Part shown: positions 7,624-18,030 of the stretch, one piece after another
Layout: each line of letters starts with the position of its first letter
Numbering within the stretch: position 1 is the first letter of the stretch
Virus record (IMG/VR): IMGVR_UViG_3300031972_001263
Location: 1 to 20,233 of that record
Origin: a virus
Reading direction: 5' to 3' (one strand)
DNA: 20,233 bases
Position numbers and translations under genes: made by a program
The notes under the pieces: model-generated
Database searches by the model: none
The model's input: the letters and a program-made list of their open reading frames with translations, nothing else
What the model was told of the DNA's origin: nothing

Positions 7624-7631
7624 TATAAATA
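7624..7631 (+). promoter_or_regulatory. T4-type late promoter for gene 22
   Basis: Exact TATAAATA right after the gene 21 stop, 24 bases before the gene 22 ATG. A normal AAAGGAG ribosome-binding site lies between, so this transcript has a short conventional leader. Confidence 0.75.
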
Positions 7632-8920: not shown

Positions 8921-8928
8921 TATAAATA
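8921..8928 (+). promoter_or_regulatory. T4-type late promoter for gene 23
   Basis: Exact TATAAATA, 28 bases before the gene 23 ATG, followed by AAAGGAG at 8944-8950. This is the expected arrangement for the most strongly expressed late gene. Confidence 0.8.
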
Positions 8929-8956: not shown

Positions 8957-10312
8957 ATGTTTCAAGCAGAACATCTACAAGAAAAGTGGTCGCCAGTCCT
9001 AGAACATCCCGATCTTCCCCAGATTGAAGATGCCTATAAGCGGTCTGTTACCACTGTTATCCTCGAAAACCAAGAAGCTGCTCTAAGAGAAGATGCAGCA
9101 TTCCTTTCGGAATCCGTTCCTACAGGTAATGTTTCCGGTGTATCAAACTGGGACCCAATTTTGATCTCACTAGTTCGCCGTGCAATGCCAAACCTCATTG
9201 CGTATGATGTTTGTGGTGTTCAGCCAATGACAGGTCCAACTGGACTTATCTTTGCAATGCGGGCCCGTCATGCTTCAATGGATGGTGAAGAAGCATTGGT
9301 CGATGAGACAACCGGCGCAGCTGCAAACGGATTCTCTGGTGACTTCTCGAACCAAAACGCTGCTGGTACAACTTCTGGACCAGGCGACATTGGTGCAAGT
9401 GAAAGCAACCCTGCTGCTCTTAATGACAGCCCTTCTGCTGGTACTTACACATTCGCAACTGGTATGACAACAGCACAATCTGAAGCATTGGGTGATAGCG
9501 GAACAAACGCTTTTGCCGAGATGTCATTCAGCATTGATAAGTCAACGGTCACAGCAGTTTCCCGTGCTTTGAAAGCAGAGTATTCAATGGAACTTGCTCA
9601 AGACCTCAAGGCAATCCACGGTTTGGATGCCGAAACAGAACTTGCAAACATTCTTTCAACAGAAATTCTTGCAGAAATCAACCGTGAGGTTGTTCGTTCT
9701 ATCTATAACACTGCTGTTGCTGGCGCTCAAATCAACACAACAACTGCTGGTATCTTTGATCTTGACACCGACTCAAATGGTCGTTGGTCAGTTGAAAAGT
9801 TCAAGGGTTTGATGTTTGCTATCGAGCGTGATGCCAATGCAATTGGTCAACAGACTCGTCGTGGTAAAGGTAACATGATCATCTGTTCAGCTGATGTTGC
9901 TTCTGCACTTCAGATGGCTGGTGTTCTTGATTACACTCCTGCCCTCAACAACAACCTCAATGTTGATGACACATCCACCACATTTGCTGGTGTGATGAAT
10001 GGTCGTTACAAGGTTTATGTTGACCCATATTCAGCTAATGTTGCTGCAAGTCAGTACTATGTTGTTGGATATAAAGGTACTTCACCTTACGATGCTGGTT
10101 TATTCTACTGCCCATATGTTCCATTACAAATGGTTCGTGCAGTTGGTGAAAACAGCTTCCAGCCCAAAATTGGTTTCAAGACTCGTTATGGTATGGCTGC
10201 TAACCCATTTGCCCGTGCTGGTGCAGAGGCCGCTAATACAGCTGCTACAATCTCACTTGCAGCAAATACAAATGCTTACTATCGTCGGGTTAAAGTTACA
10301 AACCTTATGTAA
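8957..10312 (+). CDS. gp23: Major capsid protein gp23
   Basis: This is the HK97-fold subunit of the head shell. It has 451 residues against 521 in T4. T4-type signatures run through it: an N-terminal delta region (LQEKWSPVLEHPDLPQI, ILENQE), RRAMPNLIAYDVCGVQPMTGPTGLIF, ALKAEYSMELAQDLKAIHGL, TEILAEINREVVRSI, NGRYKVYVDPYSA and QPKIGFKTRYGMAANPFA. The likely gp21 cut is after FLSE (Glu52), aligned with FLTE of T4 gp23, but the next residue is Ser53 rather than Ala. Late promoter and strong AAAGGAG lie just upstream, and a UUCG hairpin terminator ends the unit. No vertex paralogue (gp24) follows, unlike T4. Confidence 0.98.
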   Translation: MFQAEHLQEKWSPVLEHPDLPQIEDAYKRSVTTVILENQEAALREDAAFLSESVPTGNVSGVSNWDPILISLVRRAMPNLIAYDVCGVQPMTGPTGLIFAMRARHASMDGEEALVDETTGAAANGFSGDFSNQNAAGTTSGPGDIGASESNPAALNDSPSAGTYTFATGMTTAQSEALGDSGTNAFAEMSFSIDKSTVTAVSRALKAEYSMELAQDLKAIHGLDAETELANILSTEILAEINREVVRSIYNTAVAGAQINTTTAGIFDLDTDSNGRWSVEKFKGLMFAIERDANAIGQQTRRGKGNMIICSADVASALQMAGVLDYTPALNNNLNVDDTSTTFAGVMNGRYKVYVDPYSANVAASQYYVVGYKGTSPYDAGLFYCPYVPLQMVRAVGENSFQPKIGFKTRYGMAANPFARAGAEAANTAATISLAANTNAYYRRVKVTNLM

Positions 10313-10345
10313 GATTGTTACAACAAGAAACTTAACTATAAACTT

Positions 10346-10373
10346 GGGAGAGCTTCGGCTCTCCCTTTTTTTT
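10346..10373 (+). terminator. Rho-independent terminator after gene 23
   Basis: GGGAGAGC at 10346-10353 pairs perfectly with GCTCTCCC at 10358-10365 around a TTCG tetraloop, followed by eight T (10366-10373). This is a textbook intrinsic terminator, 34 bases after the gene 23 stop, running directly into the next late promoter. Confidence 0.92.
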
Positions 10374-10397
10374 CTTTATAAATAAATGTATCATGTC
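10361..10397 (+). repeat. 37-bp direct repeat, left copy
   Basis: Identical to 13335-13371. It spans the last stem bases and U-tract of the terminator, the late promoter and the first five bases of the next gene (ATGTC). After one mismatch the similarity continues for three more bases. Confidence 0.9.
10377..10384 (+). promoter_or_regulatory. T4-type late promoter for the fibre-like gene
   Basis: Exact TATAAATA only eight bases before the ATG at 10393. By T4 geometry the transcript would carry about three untranslated bases, and no Shine-Dalgarno is present. Confidence 0.75.
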
Positions 10398-12441
10398 GGA
10401 AATAAACAAAATCTTAAAAAATAAATTCGGTATTGATCGTGAATCAAAACCTGTAAAACAGGATAAGTGGTTGAAGTTCCAGCGGCCTATTGAAGAAGAT
10501 TTACTTTTGCAGCAACAACTAATTGAGGCAAAACAGAAATCGATAGAAGAGGAAGAGCTTCAAGACATAGAAGAACAACCCAAACCTGTTGAAAAAAAAT
10601 CCTTATCAGAAGGTGACGCAAAAAAGATAGCTGCGTTCTCTGAACTTATCAAGTCTTTTGGTGCAGAAATCGAACCAGAGATTATAGAAGAGGATTTACA
10701 ATTACAAGTTGAAGATATCACACCTGTTCCTGTTGTCGTTTCACAGACACCAGTTGATATAAGAGAGGCAGTAAAACTTGTTAAGGATAGAACTTTACCC
10801 ACAAAACAAGAAACAATAGAATCAACACAGAAACTTATTACTGATGTTGTAAACAACCTTGAGGACATGAAAGGTAAGACAGAGGTCAAAGAACAAGTAG
10901 ATGAGATAGATGCATTAAGAGGAGAGTTTAACACACTACAAAAACAAGTAAGACAATCACAAATTACAATTGGTGGATTATCTGGAAGTGGTGGTGGACT
11001 TGATCCAAATAAAATTGCACACAGTTTGTTGCCAGCTGCTGATGATACTTTTGATTTAGGTTCTGCATCAAAGCAATGGAGAAACTTATATCTTGGTGGC
11101 AGTACATTAATTGTTGATGGTGCTTCTCTTGCTGCTGATGAGTTATCTGCATTAGATAATATAACTGCTGGTACGGTGGCTGCAAGTAAAGCAGTGATTG
11201 TAGACAGTAACAAAGATATCTCTGGTTTTAGAAATGTTACTCTAACAGGTGATCTGACTGTATCTGGTGATGATATCACAATGGGCACAAACACCGCAGG
11301 CCACATTATGGTCGCAGATGGCACCAACTTTAATCCTGTCGCAGTGTCTGGTGATGTGACGTTGGCATCTAACGGTGCAGTAACAATTGCAAATACTTCT
11401 GTTACAAATGCGATGTTAGCAGGTTCTATTGCTAATGCTAAACTTTCAAATAGTTCAATCACAGTTGCAGATGGTTCAAGCACAACTGCTATTTCTTTGG
11501 GTGGAACAATTACATTTTCTGGCACATCAAATGAAGTTACAGTTGGAGAAAGCTCTGGAACAATAACTGTTGGTTTACCAGATGATGTTACCATTGCTGG
11601 TGACTTGACTGTTAACGGTGACACAACAACGGTAAATACAGCTACTCTTTCAGTAGAAGACCCACTTATTAAACTTGCAAATGGTAACAATTCATCAGAT
11701 TCACTTGATGTAGGATTTTATGGCCTTTATGATACCTCTGGTTCTCAAGACTTATTTGCTGGTTTGTTTAGAGATGCAAATGATAGTGGTAAGTTTAAAT
11801 TATTCAAAGACCTTCAAGCAGAGCCAACCACAACTGTTAACACAAGTGGAACAGGATATGCAGTTGCAACTTTAGTTGCAAATCTTGAGGGAACCATACA
11901 AACAGCGGCACAAACAAATATTACTTCACTTGGCACATTAACCACCCTTACTGTAGATAGTATTATTATAAATGGGACAAATATTGGTCATACAAGCGAT
12001 ACAGATGCTATCGCAATTGCTTCTGATGGTGTGGTTACATTTAGTCAAGTTCCAGTGCTTCCTGCTGATACGATTGAGACAGCTGATATCCAAGATAATG
12101 CTGTAACTCCTGCTAAGATAGCTGGTGCAGTAAATGCTCAAACTGGAACGGCTTACACATCTGTAATTGGTGACGCATTCAAGACAGTTACGATGAGTAA
12201 TGGGTCTGCTAACAAACTTACAATTCCACCTAACAGTAGTGTTGCATATGCCATTGGAGATCGTATCGATGTTGTAATGTTGGGTAGCGGCACAACATCT
12301 ATTCAAGGCGGTTCCGGCGTTACAGTTAACGGAGTATCAACTGGCACCGTAGCTATAGCTGCACAATTTGCTGCGGTATCTTGTCTTAAAATAGCAACTG
12401 ATACTTGGGTGGCAATGGGTAATCACGGTGGGGTGAGTTAA
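10393..12441 (+). CDS. Fibre-like virion structural protein with repeats
   Basis: This 682-residue protein has two parts. Residues 1-190 are charged and helical, with coiled-coil-like Glu/Lys/Gln stretches. From about 195 on it is a Gly/Ser/Thr-rich beta-repeat protein typical of phage fibres: DDTFDLGSASKQWRNLYLGG (about 217-236) is a recurrent fibre motif, LTGDLTVSGDD and IAGDLTVNGDT are internal repeats, and VTNAMLAGSIANAKLSNSSI is another common fibre element. The C-terminus (IPPNSSVAYAIGDRIDVVMLGSG...) looks like a small beta tip. It starts directly after a late promoter with no ribosome-binding site, and the LamG-like gene follows after one base. Function as an adhesion or capsid-attached fibre is inferred. 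It is not a clear homologue of any T4 fibre gene. Confidence 0.85.
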   Translation: MSEINKILKNKFGIDRESKPVKQDKWLKFQRPIEEDLLLQQQLIEAKQKSIEEEELQDIEEQPKPVEKKSLSEGDAKKIAAFSELIKSFGAEIEPEIIEEDLQLQVEDITPVPVVVSQTPVDIREAVKLVKDRTLPTKQETIESTQKLITDVVNNLEDMKGKTEVKEQVDEIDALRGEFNTLQKQVRQSQITIGGLSGSGGGLDPNKIAHSLLPAADDTFDLGSASKQWRNLYLGGSTLIVDGASLAADELSALDNITAGTVAASKAVIVDSNKDISGFRNVTLTGDLTVSGDDITMGTNTAGHIMVADGTNFNPVAVSGDVTLASNGAVTIANTSVTNAMLAGSIANAKLSNSSITVADGSSTTAISLGGTITFSGTSNEVTVGESSGTITVGLPDDVTIAGDLTVNGDTTTVNTATLSVEDPLIKLANGNNSSDSLDVGFYGLYDTSGSQDLFAGLFRDANDSGKFKLFKDLQAEPTTTVNTSGTGYAVATLVANLEGTIQTAAQTNITSLGTLTTLTVDSIIINGTNIGHTSDTDAIAIASDGVVTFSQVPVLPADTIETADIQDNAVTPAKIAGAVNAQTGTAYTSVIGDAFKTVTMSNGSANKLTIPPNSSVAYAIGDRIDVVMLGSGTTSIQGGSGVTVNGVSTGTVAIAAQFAAVSCLKIATDTWVAMGNHGGVS

Positions 12442-12442
12442 G

Positions 12443-13294
12443 ATGCTTCATAGTGTTCCAGCGGGAGTTGTTTCTGCTGCATATTCGTCTTCTTCGCCTA
12501 CTATCGAAACGATACGTGCATCCACAGTGTATACATGGAATTCTACTATTTCAACTACATCTCAAACAATTGCTAACCAAGAATCATCACCAGCAGATGG
12601 TTCATCACAAACAGACTATGATATAATGAATGGTTCCTCAACAGGTTCAGATGCTCGTGATGTTACCTATGTTAGTTCAAGTGGGGGGGAATATTACAAG
12701 CCTGCTAGTAACACAGCCCTCGACTTCTTAACTATGCATACATTTAAAAGCTTAACGGCTTTTACTAATTCACTGCATAAGGAAGATGCAGCATTCACTA
12801 TTGAAATGGGATTTGGAGCGCCTAACCCGCCGCCGACATCGAATATTGGTTACTTTGCATCCACTGCCGAAGATACGGGTGATGTTGGTATACAGGTAAA
12901 GTATGATAATAATAATAAAATAGTGTTTGCTGTTTCTAATGGTAGTGGGTCAAGTTTGGCGTTCTCTCAAACAAGCACAGATGCTGCCGCTAGTGGATTT
13001 AATCATGTGGTAATATCAATTGATGAGGGTGTAACGAATGGTAGTATCATTTATTTGAATGATTCTACCAGTGACACTTTTAGTGCTAATTACAGTTCTC
13101 CATCAACTTCAGCAGCAACTTATAATTGGCATTTCTTAACCTCTTTACAATCACCGCCCGGTGATTTGAGTACACCTCGATTTGCAGTAGGCACGAATTC
13201 TGGTATAGGTTACTTTGCAGTATATAATAAAGCAGTCAGCGCAGAAGAGGCAGGACTACTTTATGATAACGCACCATCTAGATTTAAGATATGA
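12443..13294 (+). CDS. LamG/concanavalin-like domain protein, probable fibre accessory or adhesin
   Basis: This 283-residue protein starts one base after the fibre-like gene, with a G-rich ribosome-binding site inside that gene's end, so the two are translated together. After a Ser/Thr-rich N-terminus of about 90 residues it has the pattern of a LamG-type jelly roll: AAFTIEMGFGAP, GIQVKYDNNNKIVFAVSNGS, FNHVVISIDEGVTNGSIIYL and the closing IGYFAVYNKAVSAEEAGLLY, the usual last strands of this fold. Such domains bind sugars or serve as structural decoration in phage fibres and capsid fibres. There is no signal peptide or membrane segment. A receptor-binding or head-decoration role is inferred from the fold pattern and neighbour. 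Confidence 0.8.
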   Translation: MLHSVPAGVVSAAYSSSSPTIETIRASTVYTWNSTISTTSQTIANQESSPADGSSQTDYDIMNGSSTGSDARDVTYVSSSGGEYYKPASNTALDFLTMHTFKSLTAFTNSLHKEDAAFTIEMGFGAPNPPPTSNIGYFASTAEDTGDVGIQVKYDNNNKIVFAVSNGSGSSLAFSQTSTDAAASGFNHVVISIDEGVTNGSIIYLNDSTSDTFSANYSSPSTSAATYNWHFLTSLQSPPGDLSTPRFAVGTNSGIGYFAVYNKAVSAEEAGLLYDNAPSRFKI

Positions 13295-13321
13295 TAGCTT
13301 GCAAGGTTACTAATAATAAGA

Positions 13322-13347
13322 GAGGTGCTTTTACCTCCCTTTTTTTT
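13322..13347 (+). terminator. Weak rho-independent terminator after the LamG-like gene
   Basis: A five-pair stem (GAGGT at 13322-13326 with ACCTC at 13333-13337), two C, then eight T (13340-13347). The stem is short compared with the one after gene 23, but the U-tract and position are the same. Confidence 0.65.
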
Positions 13348-13371
13348 CTTTATAAATAAATGTATCATGTC
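13335..13371 (+). repeat. 37-bp direct repeat, right copy
   Basis: Identical to 10361-10397, including terminator U-tract, TATAAATA and the ATGTC start of the next gene. With the left copy it brackets the fibre-like and LamG-like genes. Confidence 0.9.
13351..13358 (+). promoter_or_regulatory. T4-type late promoter for the tail-tube-like gene
   Basis: Exact TATAAATA, eight bases before the ATG at 13367. Same geometry as the copy at 10377, with no Shine-Dalgarno. Confidence 0.75.
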
Positions 13372-13948
13372 AGAAGGACCACTCTCAAGACAACCAGATA
13401 AGTTGGATTATTTAAGTCCGACACAATTTCGTTTTGGCATTAACCAATTACCAAAGGTTGAGTTTTTCACCACTGCTGCAAACATTCCCGGCATCAACAT
13501 GGGTGAAGCAATGTTTGACACTCCATTCAAAAATTTTGGTGTTATGGGTGACAAACTGACATATGAAAACTTGGAAATAACTTTTATTGTTGATGAGTTT
13601 TTAGAAAACTATAGGTCATTACATGAGTGGATGACTGCTATAGGATTTCCAAAAGACAGAAAACAGTTCAGAGATTTTAGGTCTAATACATCAAATACAC
13701 CTAGTGCATCTATAAATACTCCCTCAACAGAAAGAGTTGGAGCAACCACTTCAGCAAATGCTTTATTCTCTGACGCTAACTTAATAGTATTGTCCAATAA
13801 AAATAATCCAGTTCTTCAAGTTGATTATCAGAACATATATCCAGTTGCTCTTAGTGGAATACAATTTAGTCAAGACGGTTCAGACGTTCAATATATAACA
13901 TCAAGTGCAACATTCTCATATCAGATATATGAATTTACCACATTATAA
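13367..13948 (+). CDS. Tail-tube-like structural protein
   Basis: This 193-residue protein is a recurrent late structural protein of marine T4-like phages. Its plan resembles the gp19 tail tube family: FRFGINQLPKVEFFTTAANI, then PGINMGEAMFDTPFKN, a strand pair GDKLTYENLEITFIVDE, the helix NYRSLHEWMTAIGFP and final strands VQYITSSATFSYQIYEF. The gp19 of this window shows the same order (RASSLPAF, GDRTFDDPWTTTFLND, NSLELWSNGI). It might be a tube or baseplate tube protein, or fill the tail-completion slot (gp3) found near gene 23 in some relatives; I cannot decide. The true start is the ATG at 13367, directly after the repeat-borne late promoter, because upstream in-frame codons lie in the terminator. 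uvsY follows after nine bases. Confidence 0.75.
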   Translation: MSEGPLSRQPDKLDYLSPTQFRFGINQLPKVEFFTTAANIPGINMGEAMFDTPFKNFGVMGDKLTYENLEITFIVDEFLENYRSLHEWMTAIGFPKDRKQFRDFRSNTSNTPSASINTPSTERVGATTSANALFSDANLIVLSNKNNPVLQVDYQNIYPVALSGIQFSQDGSDVQYITSSATFSYQIYEFTTL

Positions 13949-17493: not shown

Positions 17494-18030
17494 ATGGCAA
17501 AGAAAAAAGGTATTCATTATGTAGACAATAAACAATTTCTACAAGCAATGATTGAATGGCGTGAAGAATATGATCTCGCAGAAGAGAATGGAAAACAAAC
17601 ACCACCTGTAACAAACTACATTGGTGAATGCTTTCTAAAGATTGCTACTCATCTAGCTTATAAACCAAACTTTATTAATTACACATATAGAGAAGATATG
17701 GTTTCTGATGGTATCGAAAACTGCCTGCAATATGTTAAAAACTTCAATCCAGAAAAATCAAAAAATCCTTTCGCATACTTTACGCAAATCATCTATTACG
17801 CTTTCCTTAGACGAATTGCGAAAGAGAAGAAACAAAGTCACGTTAGAAATAAAATGATTGAGCGTGACGCATATGATTCATTCACCACAATGGAAGGAGA
17901 TGATTCTTCTTATTATGTTGAGGGAATTGATACTAAATTATTCTTACCAGAAGAAGATGTTTATAAACCAAAGAAAAAAGAGCCAGCAAAGAAAAAAGGG
18001 TTGGAAGTTTTTATGGAGAAAGACACTTGA
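17494..18030 (+). CDS. gp55: Late transcription sigma factor gp55
   Basis: gp55 is the small sigma-like factor that directs host RNA polymerase to TATAAATA late promoters, linked to the gp45 sliding clamp. It has 178 residues against 185 in T4. The match includes YVDNKQFLQAMIEW (T4 YVNNKELLQAIIDW), YREDMVSDGIENCLQYVKNF (T4 [20 protein letters not shown]) and KNPFAYFTQIIYYAFLRRIAKEKK, the sigma-region-2-like core. The C-terminus GLEVFMEKD parallels the clamp-binding SLDFLYE of T4. A Lys-rich linker (KPKKKEPAKKKG) joins it to the core. TTGGAG precedes the ATG and a sigma70-type promoter lies upstream. The stop overlaps the TTG start of gene 47. Confidence 0.95.
   Translation: MAKKKGIHYVDNKQFLQAMIEWREEYDLAEENGKQTPPVTNYIGECFLKIATHLAYKPNFINYTYREDMVSDGIENCLQYVKNFNPEKSKNPFAYFTQIIYYAFLRRIAKEKKQSHVRNKMIERDAYDSFTTMEGDDSSYYVEGIDTKLFLPEEDVYKPKKKEPAKKKGLEVFMEKDT

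Follow-up and report, generated by a model that had tools for sequence, protein, structure and literature searches.

T4-type late promoters set at start codons and predicted leaderless late transcripts of pelagiphage-type T4-like phages

The late promoters of bacteriophage T4 consist of the gp55/gp33/gp45-dependent octamer TATAAATA. In the available part of a review of T4 late transcription, the first base of this box is numbered −13 (PMC2988020), which places the box at −13 to −6 and makes the sixth base past it +1. Bacterial leaderless genes have a promoter immediately before the ATG (a −10 box about 12 bp upstream), no Shine-Dalgarno (SD) site and an AUG start, and the leaderless cI mRNA of phage lambda begins at its AUG, according to the accessible portions of PMC3160421 and, for cI, also of PMC9031893. 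For T4-like phages of marine hosts, NATAAATA late promoters were reported in S-PM2 and Syn9 in a paper whose available text makes no mention of the word leaderless (PMC2984593), and the accessible part of another describes the prediction of cyanophage late promoters with a TATAAAT query (PMC3037559). Fifteen late promoters were counted in Melnitz, in a paper whose available text has "leaderless" only in a reference title (PMC9004378), which is also the only place where the word occurs in PMC7892664. The sections available of a pelagimyophage survey describe late-promoter prediction as unsuccessful (PMC7029224), and those of a paper on another phage remark that phage transcripts are often leaderless (PMC5312081). 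Searching by title and the start of the abstract, with subscription papers outside the search, we found no paper on leaderless late genes in T4-like phages.

The locus described here lies in a window of 20,233 bases, the whole of an IMG/VR virus record, the source of which is, on sequence grounds, a T4-like marine phage. By protein, its gp23 is nearest to those of Methylophilales phage Melnitz and of Pelagibacter phages Mosig and HTVC008M. The gene order, with names partly assigned by synteny with Mosig, is gp17, a minus-strand ORF, gp18 to gp23, a fibre-like gene, a lectin-like ORF, gp3, uvsY, a 2OG oxygenase gene, uvsW and a probable gp55. The late promoter octamer is the same as that of T4, structural genes lie downstream of it, and the fragment contains a probable homologue of the late sigma factor gp55 (17494–18030, plus strand; Sigma70_r2, 1.5e-4, slightly under the cut-off) that is syntenic with the annotated Mosig late sigma factor; the late accessory gp33-like and gp45 genes annotated in Mosig both fall outside the window fragment. 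Unlike the relatives of the window, T4, RB49 and KVP40 had no N5-spaced late gene that we could find, and their gp2 and gp25 lack the arrangement. As in the bacterial leaderless genes, the promoter stands immediately before an ATG without an SD site, but here a phage late box takes the place of the host sigma-70 −10 element and serves particular virion genes beside SD-led late genes, as far as the accessible text on the bacterial system allows comparison (PMC3160421). Lambda cI, as described in the available parts of the same sources, is a single lysogeny gene, whereas a conserved late-gene set in lytic-type phages is involved here (PMC3160421, PMC9031893). We propose, with a probability of about 0.8, that pelagiphage-type T4-like phages produce leaderless late mRNAs (0–3 nt) from T4-type late promoters fused to start codons.

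The window contains seven exact copies of the octamer; in 100 dinucleotide shuffles the mean was 1.24, and seven was never reached. With one mismatch allowed there was no enrichment in the window (42 versus 35.7). Six of the exact boxes precede gene starts and one (13711) is inside gp3. On the plus strand, the box at 10377–10384 precedes the fibre-like gene of 682 aa (10393–12441; phrog_8780 minor tail protein, 2.8e-11), and that at 13351–13358 precedes a gp3-type tail tube or tail completion gene of 193 aa (13367–13948; phrog_45, 3.3e-33). The first-pass annotation had stated that the box ends 8 nt before the ATG at both genes, without an SD site, and this is exact: the ATGs occupy 10393–10395 and 13367–13369, the 8-base spacer AATGTATC is identical at both sites (and recurs in loci L001, L002 and L003), and neither ATG has GGAG, AGGA or GAGG at −20 to −4. 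A further ATG at 10386 would precede the predicted +1 of the fibre-gene box. A third short-spaced case, absent from that annotation, is found on the minus strand, where the 5-nt spacer AAATC separates the box at 1669–1662 from the ATG at 1656 of an HNH-like ORF of 99 aa between gp17 and gp18 (1357–1656; phrog_2255 HNH endonuclease, 2.8e-05). The annotation was also right that gp18, gp22 and gp23 share the box but have longer leaders: their plus-strand boxes (1713–1720, 7624–7631 and 8921–8928) end 59, 24 and 28 bases before the ATG and are followed by AGGAG/GGAG-type SD sites, AAGGAG in the case of gp22 and gp23. The original observation holds and belongs to a wider conserved arrangement.

By T4 numbering, a 5-nt spacer puts +1 on the A of the ATG and an 8-nt spacer leaves a 3-nt leader, AUC in the window, in agreement with the leader of about three bases first suggested for both plus-strand genes. 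With predicted +1 positions at A10390 and A13364, the genes starting at 10393 and 13367 would not be strictly leaderless; the minus-strand ORF, with the A of ATG 1656 as predicted +1 and a 0-nt leader, would be. We envisage that RNA polymerase carrying gp55, the late sigma factor of the phage, would bind TATAAATA and initiate about six bases past the box, yielding an mRNA that starts with AUG for the ORF at 1656 and with AUC-AUG for the fibre-like gene and gp3, and that ribosomes would initiate on the 5′-terminal AUG without an SD site. A terminator hairpin abutting the box, where present, would shield the gene from transcription begun upstream. The leadered late genes gp18, gp22 and gp23 have the same box with a box-to-ATG interval of 24–59 nt that accommodates an SD site.

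To assess the spacing, the distance d between TATAAATA and the first ATG of any ORF with 60 or more codons was counted once per distinct context; the 247 sequences covered were IMG/VR loci together with whole Mosig and HTVC008M. There were 67 contexts at d = 5 and 11 at d = 8, the latter being the only class inflated by L001–L003, which were found via the promoter sequence itself, and by L004 and L005, which are copies of the window. One context fell at d = 0–4 in all, one each at d = 6 and d = 7, and none at d = 9–10, beyond which distances were broadly spread from 13 upwards. Permuted octamers (n = 55) gave a mean of 0.89 and a maximum of 4 at d = 5, compared with 67 for TATAAATA. After removal of near-copies, ATAAATA was found 5–9 nt before the ATG in 82 of 112 gp2, gp25 and gp3 upstreams and at 0–4 nt in none; the other 20 permutations gave a mean of 1.45 and a maximum of 8. 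The letters of the spacer vary (e.g., GTTAT, GATGT, CTAAT, TTACT, GTGGT) and its length is constant. The lower edge of the spacing, 5 nt, coincides with +1 by T4 numbering; below it, the start codon would precede the transcription start. Of 79 short-spaced starts, 1 has an SD site; of 197 leadered starts, 145 do (p = 3e-32 by Fisher's test, on rows that are not phylogenetically independent). Start codons at d = 5 are ATG in 68 cases, TTG in one and GTG in none. A preference of the promoter itself for ATG at +1 was rejected as the cause, since just 4 of the 197 leadered boxes carry ATG there.

Relatives of gp2 were fetched from IMG/VR by protein alone, and those of gp25, gp3 and the minus-strand ORF were also fetched by protein; duplicates were merged on spacer and first codons. 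Loci that were truncated or had no start near the expected place were dropped (two gp2, four gp3, two gp23, five gp22, three gp21, two gp20, one gp55 and one minus-strand ORF row). Because the gp2, gp25, minus-strand ORF and gp3 sets are the best 80 loci per search, the following frequencies describe near relatives, not all T4-like phages: the box lies 5–8 nt before the ATG in 52/52 distinct gp2 upstreams, 5–9 nt before it in 27/27 for gp25, and at d = 5 or 6 in 29/29 distinct relatives of the minus-strand ORF, with no SD site in any of the three sets. The last figure includes two rows with overlapping ATAAATA copies (d = 1 and d = 2), which were read by the first TATAAATA as d = 5 and d = 6. 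In the same loci, none of 67 distinct gp22 upstreams, 91 of gp23 or 21 of gp19 is short-spaced, and SD sites were found in 66, 88 and 20 of these, respectively; for gp20, 3 of 30 are short-spaced. The gp3 gene is mixed. Among 94 distinct homologues, 58 are short-spaced (57 of them without an SD site), 15 have an SD site (11 with a box further upstream), two have a box but no SD site, and 19 have neither a NATAAATA box nor an SD site. A tree built on 127 gp3 rows (86 short, 21 SD, 20 other) implied about 18 changes of class. Its labels also accept NNTAAATA boxes, so that L234 and L235 may be among a few rows wrongly labelled "short".

The short-spaced class consists mainly of gp2, gp3, gp25 and the small HNH-like ORF, and occasionally of portal, terminase, CsgF and other genes. 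The first-pass annotation had proposed two translation modes for late proteins, with leaderless initiation for fibre-type products. Comparative spacing, SD absence and start-codon bias strongly support the proposal of two modes with leaderless late mRNAs; the restriction to fibre-type products did not stand, given the composition of the class and the copy of the gp3 promoter module that the fibre-like gene bears.

Among complete isolates, HTVC008M has gp2 and gp25 at 5 nt, gp3 at 5 nt with the variant box ACTAAATA, and further short-spaced genes for CsgF, a 2OG oxygenase and a fibre-region protein. Mosig has gp2 and gp3 at 5 nt (the gp3 box being GATAAATA) and gp25 at 8 nt. In Melnitz, gp2 and the homologue of the minus-strand ORF are at 5 nt, and gp3 and gp25 are leadered with SD-like sites. 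A 177-kb contig, G001, has gp3, gp2 and a terminase-like gene, named by reading its sequence, at 5 nt. None of the gp2, gp3 and gp25 genes found in T4, RB49, KVP40, S-PM2, Syn9, P-SSM2 and P-SSM4 is short-spaced (gp2 was not found in Syn9, P-SSM4 and P-SSM2, nor gp3 in T4 and RB49). In DSL-LC03, S-SKS1, S-BM3, Syn19, S-H38 and S-CAM8, gp3 lacks a NATAAATA box 5–9 nt before the ATG in 6/6, as does gp25 in five of these cyanophages (S-H38 not included). P-SSM4 has one possible 5-nt case (172868, 79 aa). Some cyanophage-like gp3s (S-SKS1; L233–L237) have AT-rich, CTAAATA-like stretches before the ATG, which may or may not be degenerate short-spaced boxes.

Several other N5-ATG matches were rejected as gene starts, namely those of T4 at 131165 (6-aa frame), of RB49 at 86803 (8 aa) and of G001 at sites giving 9, 20 and 2 aa; matches in S-PM2 and at P-SSM4 107303 were judged to be inside other frames. 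The N5-ATG match at Melnitz gp3 was likewise set aside, as gp3 itself is leadered, with SD-like AAGGG. The leadered gp3 of Melnitz, L195 and L247 retains an AUG at the predicted +1, and that of Melnitz (129255; near 9255 in L255) begins a frame of eight codons, MKRENICL, which overlaps the start of gp3. This may be the relic of a leaderless start or a peptide that serves coupling.

Each of the two short-spaced plus-strand boxes of the window is preceded by a terminator-like hairpin. The one adjoining the fibre-gene box (10346–10373, plus strand) reads GGGAGAGC-TTCG-GCTCTCCC, has eight T after it and folds at −16.5 kcal/mol (z −4.07, 0/200 shuffles as good); the one upstream of the gp3 box (13322–13347, plus strand), also with eight T, folds at −8.3 kcal/mol (z −2.87, 1/200 shuffles as good). 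The annotation had named as a contrary outcome a read-through transcript coming from gene 23 and bearing a usable ribosome-binding site. The sequence lends this no support, as a hairpin stands ahead of each of the two boxes and no SD site occurs from either hairpin to the ATG. The two loci share an identical 37-nt module (10361–10397 and 13335–13371, both plus strand) made up of the terminator 3′ arm, the 8-T tract, the box, the spacer and ATGTC. The gp23–gp3 gap is 62–111 bases in 97 of 137 intervals and 3,054 in the window, where the interval (10313–13366) is occupied by the fibre-like gene and the lectin-like ORF, whose Laminin_G_3 match is sub-threshold. The simplest account of the two copies would be that this insert came with, or duplicated, the gp3 module. 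A blastn search of window positions 10280–10600 against phage records gave no match. Across relatives, a terminator is directly upstream in 54 of 72 short-spaced gp3s, and the 18 without one keep the spacing.

The PeSLs of T4-type phages are promoter/stem-loop shuffling cassettes with an early sigma-70 promoter. The window module resembles them in that a stem-loop terminator is joined to a promoter and duplicated around inserted genes; it differs in having a late TATAAATA box fused to the ATG, which places it outside that definition.

The same features could arise if longer read-through mRNAs were translated and the box near the ATG were incidental or served as an AU-rich, SD-independent ribosome site. 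AU-rich upstream regions can aid SD-less initiation, and the 18 short-spaced gp3s that lack an adjacent terminator are in keeping with such transcripts. Read-through, however, predicts neither the sharp 5-nt lower limit nor the specificity for one octamer, terminators stand before both short-spaced plus-strand boxes of the window, and SD sites are found instead at leadered boxes, all of which make this explanation unlikely. Still less probable is that initiation is placed differently from T4, by start slippage or non-templated 5′ bases, giving a short real leader. The position of +1 is indeed borrowed from T4, and gp2 and gp25 also have 6–9 nt spacers, but a templated start before the sixth base past the box would permit an ATG at d = 3–4, which is almost never seen. 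That the pattern reflects only the inherited similarity of a few promoters, with no functional constraint on spacing, is hardly credible: although a few genes and their homologues account for most of the 5-nt cases and the two plus-strand copies in the window are a recent duplication, spacer letters change while the length stays, and the arrangement is common to unrelated genes.

A host habit was rejected as the cause, as 361 crudely called genes from 400 kb of one Pelagibacteraceae genome show no peak of a −10-like box 5–7 nt before the ATG. TATAAT-N6-ATG occurs 36, 44, 43 and 32 times in four genomes versus 26, 32, 29 and 28 for reversed-pattern controls, a weak excess only. The absence of an SD site alone is weak evidence for leaderless translation, as an SD site precedes just 51 of the 361 Pelagibacter genes.

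A gene for ribosomal protein bS21 (PF01165) is present in HTVC008M (91228–91431), Mosig (9932–10141) and Melnitz (35461–35619), the three complete isolates that have short-spaced late genes. It was also found in 4 of 10 incomplete contigs (G001, G021, G022 and G026) and not in the six others, which are fragments of 43–99 kb. A search of 13 comparison phages (T4, RB49, KVP40 and ten cyanophages) found it in none. For other phages, the accessible part of PMC9723584 proposes that, late in infection, phage bS21 guides ribosomes towards the transcripts of the phage. We tentatively suggest, as a possibility that we consider doubtful, a two-mode programme of late translation: SD-led for capsid proteins, which we take to be abundant, and leaderless for gp2, gp3, gp25 and some fibres, presumably of low copy, maybe tuned by a phage bS21 that remodels the anti-SD region of the 30S subunit. 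The link between bS21 and short-spaced genes is a correlation that ancestry confounds, and common descent could account for it.

If the leaderless reading is true, a widespread marine phage group hard-wires promoter to start codon and uses a leaderless mode to set how much of specific virion parts is made. The arrangement may then bear on the late-promoter prediction described as unsuccessful in the accessible sections of the pelagimyophage survey (PMC7029224). It would also provide annotators with a start-codon rule and a testable link to phage-encoded bS21, and gp3, with its repeated switches, would allow leaderless starts to be compared with SD-led ones in a natural setting within one gene.

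The HNH-like ORF of 99 aa is conserved (the Melnitz copy is at 120742–121041), is oriented opposite to its gp17 and gp18 neighbours, and gives weak HNH endonuclease matches. Upstream of its box, at about 1670–1690 on the minus strand, many of the 29 distinct relatives show good conservation of a near-palindromic stretch like TTATAAGTGTTATAA, which may be another regulatory site between this ORF and gp18. A 5.1-kb contig, L214, carries three more TATAAATA-N5-ATG genes (1487, 2393 and 3408), two of which, by reading of their N-termini, seem to resemble homing-type endonucleases.
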